From positions 1 through 48,672 of the forward strand of contig NZ_FRAX01000022.1 of assembly GCF_900142465.1 (NCBI RefSeq): DNA of 48,672 bases, given 5' to 3'. The position numbers were made by a program, and so were the translations under genes. Under the pieces are notes generated by a model, which ran no database searches, was not told where the DNA came from, and was given only the letters and a program-made list of their open reading frames with translations. Source of the stretch: Fibrobacter sp. UWH6 (GTDB lineage: Bacteria > Fibrobacterota > Fibrobacteria > Fibrobacterales > Fibrobacteraceae). Positions 1 through 7,696 of the stretch are shown here, in pieces (position 1 is the stretch's first letter; every line of letters begins with the position of its first letter).

Positions 1-80
1 TGAACAATAGACCAAGAAAAAGGCTTGACTACCTAACACCAAATGAGTATCTTTTGAAAAAGTTCAACATTATGCGTTAG
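1..80 (+). mobile_element. IS30-family insertion sequence, 3' end only (transposase C-terminus)
   Basis: The frame starting at base 3 is open to a TAG at 78-80 and encodes 25 residues beginning NNRPRKRLDYLTPNE. That NRPRK-x-L-x-x-x-TP-x-E pattern is the usual C-terminal end of IS30-family transposases (DDE integrase-type). The element continues off the left edge. Homology to the histidine kinase that follows begins at about base 80-86, so the element boundary lies close to the transposase stop. The terminal inverted repeat cannot be defined without the other end. A small palindrome (GCGATT/AATCGC, 80-94) sits at the presumed junction. Confidence 0.75.
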
Positions 81-103
81 CGATTAGAAATCGCCAGATT
101 ATT

Positions 104-1459
104 GTGAACCTTCTGACCAATGCCATCTTGTATACGGAATTAGGTGAAGTTCGTCTGATTATCAGTTATGATGTGATTCCCAATCAGGGTGAACAACGTC
201 TGGATGAATGCATCAATCTGAAAATTACGGTAAAGGATTCGGGCGTGGGAATCCGCGACGAAAATACGGATTCCATTCTCGGATTGTTCCAGATGATGAA
301 TGAACCGAAACCTGCCGGAACTCGATTTAGTCTTAGCCTGACAAAAAAACTGATTTCCATGTGTGGTGGCGAAATTATCGTGAAGAGCCGTTTTGGTGAG
401 GGCGCTACATATATGGTTTCGATTCCGCAGCTCGTGTTGAATGTTGAACCTATGGGCGATTTTGCGACTCGCTATAAGAACGGTTCTGAAAAGGAATCGC
501 TGGGCTCAGAAATGTTGTTTGCTCCTGCTGCCCGCATATTGGCGGTCGACGATGCAGAATTGAATCTGAAGGTGATTCGTGGTTTGCTGAAGGAAACCCG
601 CGTTCAAATCGATACGGCATTAAATGGGTCTCAGTGTCTGGATATGGTCCAGGTAAGACATTATGATCTGATTTTGCTTGACAATATGATGCCTATGATG
701 GACGGCCGAGAAACCTTTGAAAGGATGAAGCGCCTCTCTGTCAACTTGTGCAAGGACACTCCTGTGGTCATTATGATTGCAGGCCCTGTTCCTGTAGATA
801 AGGAATCCTATTTGAGTGTGGGCATTGCCGATTATATTCCTAAGCCGCTTATGGAAGAAGATTTGCTTCGTGCCTTGAAGTGGTATTTGCCCAAGCATTT
901 GGTTCTTACCCGAGAAGACTTGAATATGTCTCCCTATGAAGAGATGTCCGCTAAGAACCTGGAAGAAGAAACGTCGGCTCTACTGGCCACTTATGACAAG
1001 GTGAACGGATTCTATCAGGTGGCTTCTAGCGAATCTGAAAAGAAGAAAAAGCGTGAACTTGTTGGCGACCTGGAATTGGATATGGTTACTCCTCAAAGTC
1101 CCAATGAGCGCCTGTCTGTTTTTGAAGATGTCCTGGATGTTAAACTTGGACTGGAAAACTGCATTAATGACGAGGAATTCTTTAGGGAAATGCTTTCTGA
1201 ATTCCTGCTGGATGACAAGCGGAAGGAATTGGAACGTGCATACGATTCTGGTGAATGGATGAATTATCAGATTCTGGTTCATGCCCTTGGAGGTACTGCC
1301 CGCACAATTGGTGCCGAGGAATTGTCACGAGATGCCAAGTCGATCGAGATGGCTTGCAAGGAAGGTAAGATTGACTATGTGCGTAAGAGGCATGTTGAAC
1401 TGATTGCTTCATATGCCAATGTTCTTCGAAAGATTCGTGAAGGATTGAACGCAAAATGA
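104..1459 (+). CDS. 5'-truncated hybrid histidine kinase: degenerate HATPase, receiver and HPt domains
   Basis: This is the C-terminal half of a hybrid sensor kinase paralogous to the kinase at 3621. What remains: the HATPase N-box (NLLTNA, residues 3-8), the G1 box (DSGVGI, ~45-50), a degraded G2 region (GTRFSLSL where the paralogue has GTGLGLNL), a receiver domain (~143-258; acidic pair D149/D150, phosphoacceptor D193, K247) and an HPt domain around H393. The sensor and HisKA regions are gone. The receiver has Ala226 where Thr/Ser is expected. The HPt motif is HALGG rather than HSLKS. The kinase frame is open from base 47, but a stop at 44-46 and the IS30 end lie upstream; GTG at 104 is the first usable start. 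Its stop overlaps the next ATG (ATGA). It may be a decaying remnant or a stand-alone receiver/HPt protein. Confidence 0.7.
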   Translation: MNLLTNAILYTELGEVRLIISYDVIPNQGEQRLDECINLKITVKDSGVGIRDENTDSILGLFQMMNEPKPAGTRFSLSLTKKLISMCGGEIIVKSRFGEGATYMVSIPQLVLNVEPMGDFATRYKNGSEKESLGSEMLFAPAARILAVDDAELNLKVIRGLLKETRVQIDTALNGSQCLDMVQVRHYDLILLDNMMPMMDGRETFERMKRLSVNLCKDTPVVIMIAGPVPVDKESYLSVGIADYIPKPLMEEDLLRALKWYLPKHLVLTREDLNMSPYEEMSAKNLEEETSALLATYDKVNGFYQVASSESEKKKKRELVGDLELDMVTPQSPNERLSVFEDVLDVKLGLENCINDEEFFREMLSEFLLDDKRKELERAYDSGEWMNYQILVHALGGTARTIGAEELSRDAKSIEMACKEGKIDYVRKRHVELIASYANVLRKIREGLNAK

Positions 1460-2547
1460 GAATGGTAGGCTTTGTATTTGGAAGTATCCTGATGATCATT
1501 GCCATCGGCATTTTGATGATGCAGGATAAGAAAGTTGAGACCAATGTGACTCTCCATCGTACGAAGGTGGCCGTAATCATGAACGGCTCGCGAAATGATC
1601 ACAGCTGGAGCGAATCTCATTATGAGGCCATGGAGAAAGTTGCTGACAGGCTTAATCTGGAAGTGCTCTATTATGAGAATGTGTCCGAGGATTCCCTGAC
1701 GGAACGCATTATGGAATCTGCCATAAAAAAAGGAGCTCGTATTGTTGTGGCCAATTCCTTCGGGTTTGGAAAAACTGTAATGCGGATGGCCGAGAAATAT
1801 CCTGAAGTCAAATTTATACATGCGTCAGGTATCGATTATAAATCTAACGTATCTACTTTCTTTGGACGAATTTACCAGATGCGTTATTTGTCGGGAATCG
1901 TGGCAGGTCTTACTACGAAGACGAACGAAATTGGTTATGTGGCTGCATTTGATATTTCTGAAGTGAATCGTGGAATAAACGCCTTTGCGCTGGGAGTCGC
2001 CAAAGTGAACCCCGAAGCGAAGGTTTTTGTGGGTTGGAGTCGTTCCTGGGAAGACTCTGCCTTGGCTGCGGATGCGACTAATGACTTGATTAATAAGCAT
2101 AATATAGACGTGTTGACGGTCCATGTGGATGCCCTGAGCCCTTACGATATTGCAGAGCATCGGAATATTCGGATGATTGGATATAACCTGGATAATGGAA
2201 ACCGTTTCCCGAGAACGTTTATGACAGCCCCGGTATGGCGCTGGGAGAATTATTACTCTCCCAAGATCATGGCTATCTTGCAGGACAAGTTTGTTGGCGA
2301 TCATGCCTGGCTTGGTGTTGATAGCGATATTATTGGCCTGGCTCCAATGACGGCTCTTGTTCCGGATTCCGCAAGGAAAATCGTTGACGTAGAATTCGAA
2401 CGTTTGAAATCTGGCGCCTACGATGTCTTTTATGGCCCCATTGAAGATAACCATGGAGATGTTCGCGTAAATGATGGTGAAAGCATGACCGATGTGGATA
2501 TGCTTGAACATTTTGACTGGTATGTGAAAGGGGTGGTGAATGAATAA
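1456..2547 (+). CDS. Membrane-anchored BMP/PnrA-family binding protein 1
   Basis: A 363-residue protein with one N-terminal hydrophobic segment (about residues 4-22) that has no lipobox Cys, so it is probably a membrane anchor or uncleaved signal. The rest has the layout of BMP/PnrA-family (Med-type) periplasmic nucleoside-binding proteins: an opening beta strand VAVIMNGSRND, a YPEVKFIHASG strand, the RYLSGIVAGL helix and IGYVAA..EVNRGINAFALG. No ABC permease or ATPase gene is adjacent, which argues against a transport role here. The start overlaps the previous stop by 4 bp and the end overlaps the next gene by 8 bp, so translation is probably coupled. It is a paralogue of the next gene, of the same length. 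I infer a ligand-sensing partner for the kinase at 3621; the ligand is unknown. Confidence 0.8.
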   Translation: MRMVGFVFGSILMIIAIGILMMQDKKVETNVTLHRTKVAVIMNGSRNDHSWSESHYEAMEKVADRLNLEVLYYENVSEDSLTERIMESAIKKGARIVVANSFGFGKTVMRMAEKYPEVKFIHASGIDYKSNVSTFFGRIYQMRYLSGIVAGLTTKTNEIGYVAAFDISEVNRGINAFALGVAKVNPEAKVFVGWSRSWEDSALAADATNDLINKHNIDVLTVHVDALSPYDIAEHRNIRMIGYNLDNGNRFPRTFMTAPVWRWENYYSPKIMAILQDKFVGDHAWLGVDSDIIGLAPMTALVPDSARKIVDVEFERLKSGAYDVFYGPIEDNHGDVRVNDGESMTDVDMLEHFDWYVKGVVNE

Positions 2548-3631
2548 ATTGTTATGGACAATTCCCCTTGTCTGCATCATCCTGACAACGGTCATTATTT
2601 CGTCGATTTTGTCTTTTGGTAGCGAAAAGGAGACTCCTGAATCAGTGATAGGAGTCATTATGCCCGGCCGCGTGAATGAATTGGGCTGGAACGGCATTCA
2701 TTACAAGGGTATTGCGGAAGCCGCCGAAAATTTGGGCGTAAAAGTTTTGCTGGTTGAAAATGCTCGTGAGAACTCGGGACTTTGTGCAGCTGCAATTGAT
2801 AGCCTTGTTGAGGCTGGCGCAAAGATGGTTATTCTTGGCAGCTACAATTATCCGCAGGAAGTCCTGTCAACTATACGTAAATATCCCAAGGTGATGTTCT
2901 TCTCTTACCTGTCCATGTCGGATGAAGAAAATTACAAGGTTTATTTTGCGAGAGTTTATCAGGCCAGGTTCCTTTCCGGAATTGTTGCCGGCCTGTCTAC
3001 GAAGAACAACAAGATTGGCTATGTGGCAGCCATGAATAATAATGAAGTGAATCGTGGAATAAATGCCTTTGCGCTGGGCGTTGCCAAGGTAAATCCCGAA
3101 GCAAAGATTTTTGTTTCGTGGACAGGTGCCTGGGATGATGAGGATATTGAAAAGGATAATGTGAATCGTCTGGTGAATGGTGCAGGCGTTGACCTGGTGG
3201 CATATCATCAAAATCAGGATTGGGTTCTGAAGGAAGCCGAAGTGATGGGCGTGATGTCCATCGGTTATAATTTGGACTCTTCTTCCTATTCGCCTAATGT
3301 GCTGACATCTGTCTCGACGAATTGGGAAATTGTCTACAAGTCCATCATCCAGGATTACTTTCAGAAAAAGCAAAGTCTGTCTAATTATTGGATTGGCATA
3401 GAAACTGATGCAGTAGGGTTGTCTTTTTATTCTTCTCTCGTAAGTGATTCTGTCAAGAACGTCTTGAACGAGACTGTTCTCCAGATGAAAAGTGGGATGG
3501 ATGTTTTTTCCGGTCCGATTTATGACAATAAGAAGAAAAGGCGTTGTGCCAAGGATGAAATTGTCAGCGATCAAATTTTACGTGATAGTATGGATTGGTT
3601 TGTGAAGGGGGTGGTCATTTATGAAGACTAG
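2540..3631 (+). CDS. Membrane-anchored BMP/PnrA-family binding protein 2
   Basis: A 363-residue paralogue of the preceding protein. It has an N-terminal hydrophobic segment (residues ~4-26; Cys12 is inside the helix and is not a convincing lipobox), then a BMP/PnrA-type domain with VIGVIMPGRVNELGWN, YPKVMFFSYLSM, ARFLSGIVAGL, IGYVAA..EVNRGINAFALG and the shared C-terminal WFVKGVV. Residues lining the two ligand clefts differ between the paralogues (GRVNELGW against GSRNDHSW), so they may bind different ligands. It overlaps the upstream gene by 8 bp and the downstream kinase start by 11 bp, a compact arrangement typical of interacting products. Transport, as in true PnrA systems, would need permease genes elsewhere. 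Confidence 0.8.
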   Translation: MNKLLWTIPLVCIILTTVIISSILSFGSEKETPESVIGVIMPGRVNELGWNGIHYKGIAEAAENLGVKVLLVENARENSGLCAAAIDSLVEAGAKMVILGSYNYPQEVLSTIRKYPKVMFFSYLSMSDEENYKVYFARVYQARFLSGIVAGLSTKNNKIGYVAAMNNNEVNRGINAFALGVAKVNPEAKIFVSWTGAWDDEDIEKDNVNRLVNGAGVDLVAYHQNQDWVLKEAEVMGVMSIGYNLDSSSYSPNVLTSVSTNWEIVYKSIIQDYFQKKQSLSNYWIGIETDAVGLSFYSSLVSDSVKNVLNETVLQMKSGMDVFSGPIYDNKKKRRCAKDEIVSDQILRDSMDWFVKGVVIYED

Positions 3632-6251
3632 TATTCGATTGAGGATGATCCTTTGGATGGTGGCGTTTGCCTCTGTCCTGTGTCTTGTGGCCGGTTTGCT
3701 GCGTTTTAGACTGGATAGCCTTTTTTATGGATATGTTTCAAGCCAGGTATCAAAGCAGGCTGCCATCATGGCTGAACTCGTGGATGAACGGGTGAGCGTC
3801 CAGCTTGAATTCCTGTCGGGAATTTCTAGGGAAATGGAAAAGGATAGTTCAAGAATGTCCGTAATCCTGGAAAGCTACCGAAAGGAAAATGGGATTTCCT
3901 ATGGAGTGTTGAATCTAAAGGGAAAGCTTATTGTGGGTGATACGTCAGTAACGGTTTCGCCTGCCGATTTTTCAAGCATCGCCCAGTCATTTCGAGGGAA
4001 TGAGGCTGTCAGCTATAGCGAGGGCAAGGGCTTCCTTTTTAGCGTTCCCATATACCATGGTAGAAACGTTCGTTATGTCCTTTATAAAATCTATAGCGAG
4101 TCTGAAGTTCTTCGCTATTTCGACAATCGCTGTTATGATGGGGAATGCTATTCTTCGATTCGTAATGCCGATGATCAGGTGATTGTGGGTTCGGCCAATA
4201 ACCCGCTTTCTGAAAATCCGATTTGGCAGAACGGAAACTTTGATCCCATTCGCGTTCAGCTGAAAAAACTTCTGAATGTTTCTATTGCCGCAGCCGTACG
4301 CGAAGATGTGGGCGGAAAGGGTTACTTCTTCTTTATGGCGGACTTGAAGCAACCTGGTCTTTCTCTTGTTGGCATGGTTCCCGAATCGGTTGCCGCAAAG
4401 GGTGTTGAAGATATTACCCTCCTGATTTTCTGGGTTTTCGGAATTTTGCTGCTCTTGTTCCTTATCGGCTTTGGCTTCATATTTGTGTCGGAACGTAAGG
4501 CGGAAGAAAATGTGACCTTGAGAGAAGCGAAGGTCCTGGCAGAAAAGGCAAGCCTGGCCAAGAGTCAGTTCCTGGCTAACATGAGCCATGAAATTCGTAC
4601 TCCGATTAACGGAATTCTGGGTATGGATACAATGTTGCTGAAGGAATGCAAGGATCCGACCTTGAAGGAATATGCCCTAAATATTCAGAGTGCGGGCCAT
4701 ACGCTGCTTTCGATTATTAACGACATCCTGGATATTTCCAAAATTGAATCGGGCCGCATGGAAATCGTTCCTGTTGAATATGACTTGTTCTCTGTGCTCA
4801 ATGAATGCCGTAACATGGTGTCTATGCGCGCCAACGAAAAGTCGTTGGATCTTCGTGTAGAAGTGGATAAGTCCATGCCATCGGGCTTGATGGGTGATGA
4901 AGTCCGTGTGCGTCAGATTATCAATAACCTGTTGTCGAATGCGGTCAAGTATACTCCCAGTGGAAGCGTAATCTTGAGAGTGTCTTACGAACGGAACAAT
5001 ATGGGTTCGCAGTTGGGTTCTCCGGATCTCCGTACCATCAATTTGGTGATTGCCGTTCAGGATACTGGTATTGGAATTCGCAATGAGGATGTCGACAAGT
5101 TGTTTGCGACGTTCCAGCGCCTAGAAGAAAAGCGTAACCGCAATATCGAAGGAACGGGCCTTGGCTTGAATCTGACTAAGCGTCTTGTTGACTTGATGGG
5201 TGGCGACATCCAGGTGGAAAGTGAATATGGAAAGGGTTCTACGTTTATCGTGGCGATTCCGCAGATTGTGAAGCGTAGCGAACCTATTGGTGATTTTAAT
5301 GAACGTTGCAACAAGGCAGTGACGGTTGATATTTCCCGTAACCGCTTTAGGGCTCCTCACGCCAATATCCTGGTGGTTGATGACGTTCCCATGAATCTTC
5401 GTGTGATGAGTGGCCTCTTGAAGGATACGCAGGTGCAGATCGATACTGCACTCAACGGAATGGAAGCTCTGGAAAAAATCAAGCGCAAACATTACGATGT
5501 CATATTCCTTGACCATATGATGCCTGTAATGGATGGTATGGAAACGGTTTCGCTGATGCATACCCTTTCTGGACATCCGAACGAGAGTACGCCTGTAATC
5601 ATGCTGACCGCCAATGCCGATAAGCATGCCCGCGATCTGTATTTGCAGGCGGGATTCTCTGATTATCTGTCAAAGCCGATTCGCGAAGCGGATTTGCTGG
5701 GTGTCTTGCTGGACTATCTGCCGTCTGACCTTCTCGTGATGGTTGACCAGCCTAAGCCTGTTGCGGAACCCAAGTCGTTGGATGACCTGTATCAGACTCC
5801 TGTAGTTTCTGTGCCTCTTGCAAATAAGGAAAAAACTCAGCCGGAAGAAAAGTCTCCAAGATATGGAAAGGCTTTGAATATTTCCAAGGATCTGGTGGAT
5901 CTTTCTGCAACGGGTTTTGTGGATGTAGAAATCGGTCTAGGCTATTGCATGAATGATGAAACGTTCTATCGCGAAATGCTGACCGAATTTGTGAAGACCA
6001 ATAAGGAATCTGAATTGAATGCGTCCTTGAAGGATGGCGATTTCGAATCCTATAGAATTTGCGTTCACTCCCTGAAGAGTACTTCCTTGACTATTGGCGC
6101 AGTGGAATTTTCGAGCCGTGCCAAGGCCATGGAATTTGCCTGCAAGGATGGGCATTTTGACTATGTGCAGATGCATCATGACGCGCTGATGGCCGAATAT
6201 CGTAACTTCTTGAAAGTCCTTACGGATTTTGCCAAGGATCATCGGGCATGA
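3621..6251 (+). CDS. Hybrid sensor histidine kinase (Cache-like sensor, HisKA, HATPase, receiver, HPt)
   Basis: An 876-residue membrane kinase. A transmembrane helix (~8-27) leads into a ~240-residue periplasmic region that looks Cache-like, then a second helix (~270-292). HisKA follows with phospho-acceptor His323 in SHEIRTP. The HATPase has an N-box NNLLSNAVKYT, G1 DTGIGI and an intact G2 GTGLGL. The receiver domain has VVDD, phosphoacceptor Asp631 (FLDHMMPVMDG), Thr in MLTANA and Lys in SKPI. The C-terminal HPt carries His816 (VHSLKS). All phosphorelay residues are present, so it should autophosphorylate and relay internally to HPt, then to an unseen output regulator. It is translationally overlapped with the two BMP proteins, which suggests they present a ligand to its periplasmic domain. 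It is a paralogue of the truncated kinase at 104. Confidence 0.9.
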   Translation: MKTSIRLRMILWMVAFASVLCLVAGLLRFRLDSLFYGYVSSQVSKQAAIMAELVDERVSVQLEFLSGISREMEKDSSRMSVILESYRKENGISYGVLNLKGKLIVGDTSVTVSPADFSSIAQSFRGNEAVSYSEGKGFLFSVPIYHGRNVRYVLYKIYSESEVLRYFDNRCYDGECYSSIRNADDQVIVGSANNPLSENPIWQNGNFDPIRVQLKKLLNVSIAAAVREDVGGKGYFFFMADLKQPGLSLVGMVPESVAAKGVEDITLLIFWVFGILLLLFLIGFGFIFVSERKAEENVTLREAKVLAEKASLAKSQFLANMSHEIRTPINGILGMDTMLLKECKDPTLKEYALNIQSAGHTLLSIINDILDISKIESGRMEIVPVEYDLFSVLNECRNMVSMRANEKSLDLRVEVDKSMPSGLMGDEVRVRQIINNLLSNAVKYTPSGSVILRVSYERNNMGSQLGSPDLRTINLVIAVQDTGIGIRNEDVDKLFATFQRLEEKRNRNIEGTGLGLNLTKRLVDLMGGDIQVESEYGKGSTFIVAIPQIVKRSEPIGDFNERCNKAVTVDISRNRFRAPHANILVVDDVPMNLRVMSGLLKDTQVQIDTALNGMEALEKIKRKHYDVIFLDHMMPVMDGMETVSLMHTLSGHPNESTPVIMLTANADKHARDLYLQAGFSDYLSKPIREADLLGVLLDYLPSDLLVMVDQPKPVAEPKSLDDLYQTPVVSVPLANKEKTQPEEKSPRYGKALNISKDLVDLSATGFVDVEIGLGYCMNDETFYREMLTEFVKTNKESELNASLKDGDFESYRICVHSLKSTSLTIGAVEFSSRAKAMEFACKDGHFDYVQMHHDALMAEYRNFLKVLTDFAKDHRA

Positions 6252-6263
6252 TGAGGTAATAAA

Positions 6264-6806
6264 ATGACTGAAGAACAGATTGATGTGTTGAATCCGGATG
6301 GAACTTTCGCTGGCTATTCCCGTGGCCGTACTGAAGTACACGAGAAGGGCCTTTGGCACAGAACGGTGCATATCTGGGCTTTTGACAAGAGCGGCCGTAT
6401 TCTGTTTCAGCTGCGCGCCGCTGTAAAGGAAAACAATCCGGGGCTTCTGGATACCAGTTGCGCAGGCCATATTTCTGCGGGCGATAGTAGCTGTAATGCC
6501 GCTGTCCGTGAATTGCGGGAAGAGTTGGGCGTTACGAAAACCGCCGAAGAACTGGAGTACCTTTTCGAGTCTGGACATGAGAGCGTGCTGAACGGTGGCT
6601 CCTATCTGGACAATGAATATTACGACACCTACAAGATTGTCCTGTCTGATGAAGAGGCCGCTAGCCTTGTTCCCCAGCCTGGCGAAGTGGACGATTTTGT
6701 ATGGATGACCCGCGAAGAATTTTTTGCGAAGCATAAGCTGAATCCCGAAAAGTTCGTAGACCATCCCAAGGATTATGCCTGGCTGGAAAGCAACTTGGTG
6801 TTTTAA
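6264..6806 (+). CDS. Nudix hydrolase (YfcD / IPP-isomerase-like subgroup)
   Basis: A 180-residue single-domain Nudix protein. The Nudix box lies at residues 68-90: G68, then D74 where the consensus has Glu, and R82-E83-L-R-E86-E87-L-G89, so the metal-binding RE..EE core is intact. The N-terminal part (VLNPDG..G....R.EVHEKGLWHRTVHIW) is characteristic of the YfcD/IPP-isomerase-like branch, whose members hydrolyse nucleoside diphosphate derivatives or are uncharacterised. The exact substrate cannot be read from the sequence. It starts 12 bp after the kinase stop with a short purine-rich stretch (ATGAGGTAATAAA) before the ATG, so it may be co-transcribed with the signalling genes upstream and the patatin downstream. 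Confidence 0.85.
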   Translation: MTEEQIDVLNPDGTFAGYSRGRTEVHEKGLWHRTVHIWAFDKSGRILFQLRAAVKENNPGLLDTSCAGHISAGDSSCNAAVRELREELGVTKTAEELEYLFESGHESVLNGGSYLDNEYYDTYKIVLSDEEAASLVPQPGEVDDFVWMTREEFFAKHKLNPEKFVDHPKDYAWLESNLVF

Positions 6807-6826
6807 CATACTGAAGGAACGATTAT

Positions 6827-7696
6827 ATGGCAATGTTTAAGGATGTAGCTCTGGTTCTTGAAGGTGGCGGCATGCGTGGCGCCTATTCTGGCGGCGTGTT
6901 GGATATTCTGTTGGATCACGGGATTAAGTTTGGCGGTTATGCAGGAACCTCTGCCGGCGCCACCCATATCTGCAGTTTTCTGTCGGAACAGCGCGAACGC
7001 AATATGCGCATCGATACGGTCCATTCCAAGGATCCGCGGTATAGCGGTTTCAAGTATCTGTTGAAGGGCGAAGACTTTTTCCCGAGAGAGTTCTGCTACG
7101 TTACCATTCCCCGCGAGATTGACATCTTTGACTATGCCAAGTTCGAAGAGAATGCCCATATTTCCGATTTTTATTCTGTCTGCACGAACCTGGAAACGGG
7201 CGAAGGCGAATACCTTCTGACCCAGGATGTGGACAAGGGCGACGGTCTTGAATGTGTTCGCGCTTCGGCATCCTTGCCGCTGGTCAGTAAGATTGTGGAA
7301 CTCCGCGGTAAAAAACTTCTGGATGGCGGCATTGCCGACAGCATCCCCTTCCAGTTCATGGATAGCAAGGGTTTCAAGAAGCAGGTGGTCATCTTGACTC
7401 AACAGGAAGGTTATGTCAAGAAGCCCAATTCCATGATCCCGCTGTTCAAGCTGATGTACCGCAAGTATCCGAAGTTCGTTGCCGCGGCTGCTACTCGCCA
7501 TATCCGCTACAACCAGGCGCTGGCCACCTTAAAGCAGTGGGAAGGTGAAGGCAAGTCCTTTGTGTTCCGCCCCAGCGAACCGTTCCAGATCAGCCGTATC
7601 GAAAAGGATACCGAAAAGCTGAAGGAACTTTACAAGATGGGCCTGCGGGATGGCGAGCGCTTGATTCCCGCTCTCAAGAAGTTCCTGGAAGGTTAG
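6827..7696 (+). CDS. Patatin-like phospholipase (YjjU/RssA type)
   Basis: A 289-residue cytosolic patatin-family serine acyl hydrolase. The oxyanion-hole loop is LEGGGMRG (residues 11-18), the nucleophile elbow is GTSAG with Ser42, and the Asp of the catalytic dyad is Asp166 in LLDGGIADSIP. The C-terminal ~100 residues are helical and basic (MYRKYPKFVAAAATRHIRYNQAL), as in the YjjU group. Expected activity is lipid acyl hydrolysis; the physiological substrate is unknown. It starts 20 bp after the Nudix gene with a GAAGGA element upstream. Its stop overlaps the convergent EamA gene by 4 bp. No hairpin terminator is apparent. Confidence 0.88.
   Translation: MAMFKDVALVLEGGGMRGAYSGGVLDILLDHGIKFGGYAGTSAGATHICSFLSEQRERNMRIDTVHSKDPRYSGFKYLLKGEDFFPREFCYVTIPREIDIFDYAKFEENAHISDFYSVCTNLETGEGEYLLTQDVDKGDGLECVRASASLPLVSKIVELRGKKLLDGGIADSIPFQFMDSKGFKKQVVILTQQEGYVKKPNSMIPLFKLMYRKYPKFVAAAATRHIRYNQALATLKQWEGEGKSFVFRPSEPFQISRIEKDTEKLKELYKMGLRDGERLIPALKKFLEG

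Follow-up and report, generated by a model that had tools for sequence, protein, structure and literature searches.

Why should two binding proteins of a transport family be encoded directly ahead of a sensor kinase, with no transporter beside them? The question is raised by a locus near the beginning of the window, the whole 48,672-nucleotide stretch of Fibrobacter sp. UWH6 DNA that was analysed (NZ_FRAX01000022.1; its position 1 is base 1 of contig C22). Here the genes of two BMP proteins, BMP1 and BMP2, are followed by that of a hybrid histidine kinase, HK3, and preceded by the remains of another kinase gene, HK2 (Table 1). BMP1 and BMP2 overlap by 8 bp and BMP2 and HK3 by 11 bp; these overlaps, like the coordinates and the domain content, agree with an earlier note on this DNA. 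PF02608 is the sole Pfam family matched by either BMP, and the genome (3.92 Mb in 50 contigs, completeness 99.99) encodes no PF02608 proteins other than these two. As the earlier note had observed, ATP-binding cassette (ABC) genes are not seen near the three genes in the window, and the unit lacks the ATPase and PF02653 permeases that belong to the operon of a BMP-type ABC transporter. We consider it probable that the unit is a ligand-sensing phosphorelay, in which two membrane-tethered BMPs derived from purine-uptake proteins act as co-receptors of a double-Cache (dCache) hybrid kinase, and it is likely to serve as a detector of nutrients or signals outside the cell.

Gene order and the absence of permeases

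The genus was surveyed in 37 genomes, 26 without BMP proteins and 11 with them, and the string BMP1-BMP2-HK3 is present in all of those 11. Fuller Fibrobacter clusters run from a tandem-receiver HD-GYP protein (RR-RR-HD-GYP, where RR denotes a receiver) through a membrane hybrid kinase, HK2, BMP1, BMP2 and HK3 to a NUDIX and a patatin gene, and no transporter genes were identified beside the clusters of the 11 BMP-bearing genomes. A second locus, with a single BMP1 between two kinases, is found in six of the 11.

Beyond the genus, contigs were scanned with a BMP alignment, and the best 80 of at least 580 related loci were analysed. These fall into 43 kinase-type loci and 37 loci with a BMP-ATPase-permease order, with no mixed cases. 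In the transporter-type loci the BMP gene is followed by the ATPase and then, where the contig is long enough, by the permeases; no permease occurs in any kinase-type locus, and a hybrid kinase lies directly downstream of the BMP gene or genes in 40 of them, the contig ending first in the other three. The hosts of the kinase-type loci are Fibrobacter, Lachnospiraceae, Oscillospiraceae, Selenomonadaceae (Selenomonas) and Treponema, which span three or more phyla, and every such locus with a stated source comes from an animal digestive tract or faeces. One kinase-type metagenome-assembled genome carries the label Thermoflexaceae; in the tree its sequences fall with those of Lachnospiraceae. Most BMP/BMP and BMP/kinase junctions overlap by 4-38 nt, and the BMP and kinase genes are, judged from these overlaps, translationally coupled. 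The earlier note had suggested a search for a conserved BMP-BMP-hybrid-kinase order free of permeases, and such an order was found in the genus and across phyla, rather than homologues that always accompany permeases or a gene order that is not conserved.

Anchor, ancestry and pocket of the BMP proteins

Both BMPs of the window begin with a transmembrane helix, which in BMP1 covers residues 2-24 and is apparently uncleaved, and by sequence neither has a lipobox, so that neither fits the description of a lipoprotein or free periplasmic binding protein. At least 30 of 39 transporter-linked BMPs have a lipobox; some of the predicted starts lie too early, so that this number is an undercount. The kinase-linked BMPs have a hydrophobic N-terminal helix and no properly placed lipobox, the few pattern matches lying inside or after the helix. 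Furthermore, Gly18 within the helix is conserved in 36 of 40 kinase-linked BMP1 proteins, and Thr29, Thr32 and Thr36, which follow the membrane, are also conserved. Positions specific to BMP1 include N67/L68, 275-279, Y326 and E342. Judged from these N-termini, the kinase-linked BMPs have exchanged a lipid anchor for a transmembrane helix.

The BMP tree contains three groups, BMP1, BMP2 and the transporter types, with Shimodaira-Hasegawa-like approximate likelihood ratio test (SH-aLRT) values of 99, 86 and 99, respectively. The BMP1 and BMP2 groups are old and separate, each extends across phyla, and single-BMP loci carry the BMP1 type. The branching order of the three groups has an SH-aLRT of 40, at which one recruitment and two are indistinguishable. 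In addition, Fibrobacter BMP1 is nested among Lachnospiraceae sequences, which suggests that BMP1 was passed between gut bacteria by transfer.

The predicted structure of BMP1 (predicted local distance difference test score, pLDDT, of 92) adopts the fold of type I periplasmic binding proteins, to which ribose-binding protein and XylFII also belong. Its best matches are 3s99 from Brucella (Z 45.0, root-mean-square deviation (rmsd) 1.6, 326 aligned) and AtzT (Z 44.7), followed by PnrA-type proteins (Z 33) and then by sugar-binding proteins and XylFII (Z 18.6, rmsd 3.8, 251 aligned); LuxP and TorT are not among the matches listed, which is not evidence against a relation. AtzT and 3s99, both purine-binding ABC proteins of PF02608, are thus the closest solved relatives in sequence as well as in fold and have the same pocket residues, but they are of the transport type, whereas the BMPs of the window are anchored by a transmembrane helix and lack a permease.

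AtzT, a class B-I protein, holds guanine between Tyr45 and Trp194 and contacts it through Ser97, Phe98, Glu165, Asn218 and Asn220, and 3s99 has been modelled with adenine (PMC6834077). The counterparts of the AtzT contacts in BMP1 are W51, W198, S101, F102, E169, H223 and D225, while BMP2 prefers Tyr for F102 and Asn for D225. In an alignment of 40 BMP1 and 40 BMP2 sequences the pocket positions are 72-100% conserved, with mean columns of 0.65 and 0.58, respectively. W198 is present in 40/40 sequences of both groups, H223 in 40/40 and 39/40, S101 in 39/40 and 40/40, and E169 in 38/40 and 32/40. The contact residues of the purine-base subgroup, namely the aromatic sandwich, Ser, Glu, His/Asn and Asp/Asn, are therefore present in the BMPs. 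Because these AtzT/3s99 residues are conserved, a purine base appears to be the best first guess as ligand, ahead of the nucleoside that the earlier note had considered possible, the pocket being closer to that of purine-base than of nucleoside binders. BMP1 and BMP2 may prefer different purines.

The BMPs could also control the kinase without any small ligand; they might be constitutive membrane inhibitors, for instance, or have a structural role as its partners. It counts in favour of this idea that ligand binding is deduced from sequence and that the fold serves roles outside transport. One such case is the Bacillus subtilis relative Med (2hqb), which was solved as a comK activator and likewise belongs to the BMP family outside transport, although it has 19% identity and is not known to be kinase-linked like the BMPs of the window. 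However, the contact positions exceed the mean column in conservation, in either BMP group and across phyla, which a dead pocket would not need, and control without a ligand therefore seems unlikely.

The HK3 sensor and the proposed phosphorelay

HK3 has a periplasmic domain between two membrane helices, followed by HisKA, HATPase, receiver and HPt domains, and it retains the H-box SHEIRTP, the N, G1 and G2 boxes, the receiver Asp and the HPt His (VHSLKS). By these motifs HK3 is a hybrid histidine kinase of the phosphorelay type, with an Hpt match under the Pfam cut-off. The AlphaFold2 model of its sensor (pLDDT 85) has a dCache fold and resembles the dCache domain of CtaA (Z 16.2, rmsd 3.1, 212 aligned).

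The distribution of this sensor domain is bound to that of the BMPs. A 32-sequence profile gave 17 matches in the 37 genomes of the genus, which correspond to the 17 BMP loci, each directly 3' of a BMP gene; the domain was not found in the 26 genomes of the genus without BMPs, and other weak matches in the genus cover the linker and HisKA region only. Similarly, in ten kinase-type genomes outside the genus all 15 matches adjoin a BMP gene. Among 299 genomes from the family of one Lachnospiraceae carrier, 17 genomes contain 18 matches, 17 of which follow a BMP gene, the other being a weak match to a divergent dCache-GGDEF-EAL protein that is not a kinase. As two genomes are common to two surveys, the three surveys amount to 47 unique occurrences, all of them beside or directly after a BMP gene. 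Divergent BMP-kinase pairs were also noted in Selenomonas (G067:C19:15475-17440 and G068:C4:74007-75987, in the genomes of loci L101 and L106), with sensor E values of ~1e-59 to 1e-62 and Bmp E values of ~1e-24, which suggests that the family is wider than the 43 loci.

This distribution bears on two other explanations. The dCache domain of HK3 might sense a ligand of its own while the BMPs deliver or sense something separate without direct docking, as dCache domains usually bind ligands directly, purines included (PMC11245519). The dCache_1 motifs for amino acids and purines contain a Trp, as in YKWFN (PMC11245519), however, and no Trp is conserved in the periplasmic part of the HK3 sensor alignment, Pfam dCache_1 (PF02743) matches HK2 but not HK3, and the sensor is found only with BMPs, all of which makes separate sensing distinctly improbable. 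That the BMPs are ordinary transport proteins which use a permease encoded elsewhere, with the adjoining kinase regulating or co-regulated with uptake, has in its favour the transport function of PF02608 and three PF02653 permeases on other contigs of the window's genome, but is very improbable in view of the swapped anchor, the permease-free kinase-type loci, the lack of HK3-type sensors on kinases away from BMP genes, and five unit-bearing Fibrobacter genomes (G003, G006, G010, G011 and G020; the first three listed as 100% complete) that have no PF02653 permease at all, so that a BMP-type ABC transporter is impossible there as far as these genomes are assembled.

The recruitment of the BMPs as receptors of the kinase, which the earlier note had put forward, is thus well supported, having passed the tests available, namely conserved order, absence of permeases, a sensor confined to the company of BMPs and a changed anchor. 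In the ligand-sensing phosphorelay that we infer from this, the two BMPs would be tethered to the inner membrane by their uncleaved N-terminal helices, and the cleft between the lobes of the BMP would take up a small ligand, for which a purine base is the likeliest candidate. The change from an open to a closed BMP would alter its seating on the double-Cache domain of HK3 and with it autophosphorylation, after which phosphate would travel from the HK3 receiver to the HPt domain and on to a separate response regulator. The response regulators linked to kinase-type loci are tandem-receiver HD-GYP proteins and GGDEF proteins, and because they carry these domains the likeliest output is cyclic-di-GMP. 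In Fibrobacter the cluster itself encodes the presumed recipient, a tandem-receiver HD-GYP protein that would lower cyclic-di-GMP.

Several points weigh against this reading. Transporter-type BMPs conserve the pocket residues to the same degree, so that these attest to descent and a working pocket rather than to the present ligand. Part of the loci have no HD-GYP or GGDEF partner in the flanks seen, and the structural support for the pairing of BMP and HK3 consists of single-chain models only. Finally, the loci covered are the best 80 of at least 580, and divergent members may behave otherwise.

Among known systems, a close parallel is LuxP/LuxQ, the autoinducer 2 (AI-2) receptor of Vibrio: in the unit, too, the gene of a binding protein is coupled to that of a kinase whose periplasmic sensor is of the PDC type. 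Vibrio relies on one soluble binding protein, LuxP, from the sugar-binding family, whereas the unit has one or two membrane-tethered BMP proteins with a purine-type pocket; furthermore, HK3 has an HPt domain of its own, and the output of the unit appears to be cyclic-di-GMP enzymes. Common to both are a type I binding protein, a hybrid kinase with a double PDC sensor and an indirect reading of the ligand (PMC6321045, PMC8534201), the double PDC sensor of LuxQ reading AI-2 only through LuxP (PMC8534201). HK3 does not belong to LuxQ by sequence, as it scores 276.8 bits against the cut-off of 1200 of the NCBIfam model LuxQ_Vibrio, over the kinase core only. The earlier note had drawn the same parallel but assigned the unit a different fold; the parallel extends to mechanism and fold class alike, given that the modelled folds, a type I binding protein for BMP1 and a dCache sensor for HK3, are the very pair of classes of LuxP/LuxQ. 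Its overall interpretation is partly supported.

In XylFII/LytS, which senses D-xylose, a type I binding protein also docks on a sensor kinase (PMC6321045), but the binding-protein family, the kinase class and presumably the ligand differ. TorT/TorS likewise combines a binding protein with a hybrid kinase that has an HPt domain (PMC6321045), and in NCBIfam the HK3 core has the TorS model among its best matches; the TorS sensor, however, is all-helical (PMC8534201), unlike the dCache domain of HK3. Receptors of the dCache_1PU type control cyclic-di-GMP, among other outputs, in response to extracellular purines (PMC11245519). They bind purines directly in the Cache domain, whereas HK3, whose sensor does not have that signature, would sense by way of the BMPs.

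No mention of pairs between BMP-family binding proteins and kinases was found in the literature searched, which describes few binding-protein/kinase pairs, and as far as that literature shows the tethered BMP-kinase unit is widespread and undescribed. If the proposed phosphorelay is real, then in gut bacteria of several phyla, fibre degraders among them, a nutrient-uptake family has become a pair of tethered paralogues that serve a phosphorelay as its eyes. For many unassigned kinases beside BMPs, both an extracellular signal (purine bases) and an output (cyclic-di-GMP) would then be open to test, and the naming of kinase-linked BMPs as binding proteins of ABC transporters would be corrected.

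HK2, pseudokinase loci and neighbouring genes

Table 1. Features of the BMP-kinase unit and its surroundings, in window positions
Feature	Position	Strand	Remarks
BMP1	1456..2547	+	PF02608; E 3.7e-47; 161 bits, cut-off 24.1
BMP2	2540..3631	+	PF02608; E 5.1e-44; 151 bits, cut-off 24.1
HK3, dCache hybrid histidine kinase	3621..6251	+	catalytic motifs intact
HK3 periplasmic dCache (double PDC) sensor, residues 28-264	3702..4412	+	AlphaFold2 model
HK3 HisKA + HATPase_c	4557..5261	+	Pfam matches
HK3 receiver (Response_reg) + HPt	5367..6161	+	Hpt match weak, below Pfam cut-off
IS30-family right end: transposase C-terminus + terminal inverted repeat	1..95	+	at contig start; splits HK2 gene
HK2 C-terminal half (HATPase, receiver, HPt)	96..1459	+	N-terminal half = end of contig C29
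NUDIX + patatin-like genes	6264..7696	+	3' of unit in several Fibrobacter genomes

The truncated HK2 frame (47-1459) overlaps BMP1 by 4 bp, and the N-terminal half of the gene lies at the end of contig C29 (L061:16072-17430), where the frame of this Cache hybrid kinase breaks off within the N-box. The initial 94-96 bp of the window are repeated at contig ends, in five places in all, and the 93 bp of the element end on the C29 side have identical copies at five contig ends. The first 80 bp of the window encode NNRPRKRLDYLTPNEYLLKKFNIMR, the exact C-terminus (last 25 residues) of a full IS30-family transposase of a sister genome (NF033563, E 8e-62), where the transposase is followed by the same 94-96 bp. 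The recurring repeats and the match to the transposase C-terminus therefore indicate that HK2 was split by an IS30 element. The IS30 ends (window 1-95; L061:17406-17499) are identical at about ten contig ends, and one copy occurs in the sister genome G011.

Even before the insertion HK2 was probably not a working kinase, because its H-box (AKELRTP against SHEIRTP) has the phospho-acceptor His replaced and its G2 box (GTRFSL) is degenerate, as is likewise the case in the related L070; the HK2 copies of G036 and G011 are intact. An assembly error alone was rejected as the cause of the truncation, since the IS30 repeat breaks the contig and an insertion in the N-box agrees with the flanking sequences, so that the gene is interrupted in this assembly. 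The earlier note had taken the truncated kinase as a sign of duplication. The truncation stands, as an IS30 split at the contig start, but a plain duplicate of HK3 was ruled out, as HK2 has another Cache sensor and lacks the His.

The second loci of six Fibrobacter genomes (L041-L046, from G003, G005, G010, G020, G030 and G035), all of which also contain the active tandem locus, lack the phospho-acceptor His in both kinases around the single BMP1 and keep the receiver Asp. Their H-boxes read SREIR, SNEIR or SSEIR in the upstream kinase and GQDI, GKEI or GQEI in the downstream kinase, and the latter has also lost the HPt His. As far as these motifs tell, the second loci hold the entire receptor unit once more, as a conserved copy with pseudokinases. 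As a tentative and rather doubtful extension, BMP1 and BMP2 might read different purines (Asp versus Asn at 225) within tethered two-receptor kinases specialised for purine bases, and the pseudokinase copies with their BMP and Cache domains, that is, the single-BMP Fibrobacter loci, might tune the active kinase, and with it the cyclic-di-GMP output, as decoys or hetero-partners.

The NUDIX gene and the patatin-like gene, the latter with DUF6363, trail both active and pseudokinase loci in several Fibrobacter genomes. Long frames of Lachnospiraceae (L155:2893-4842, L156:2786-4789 and L157:1111-3171) encode a cytoplasmic-looking PF02608 subfamily behind an N-terminal domain without a Pfam match that to the eye resembles ParB. 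They were considered as a BMP-kinase fusion, or "Rosetta stone", and rejected as another BMP subfamily with an unrelated N-terminal extension and no kinase. Lastly, two further genomes of the phylum encode PF02608 proteins (L050:7966-9087 and L062:9119-10240) that belong to a distant group and have an N-terminal leader containing Cys.

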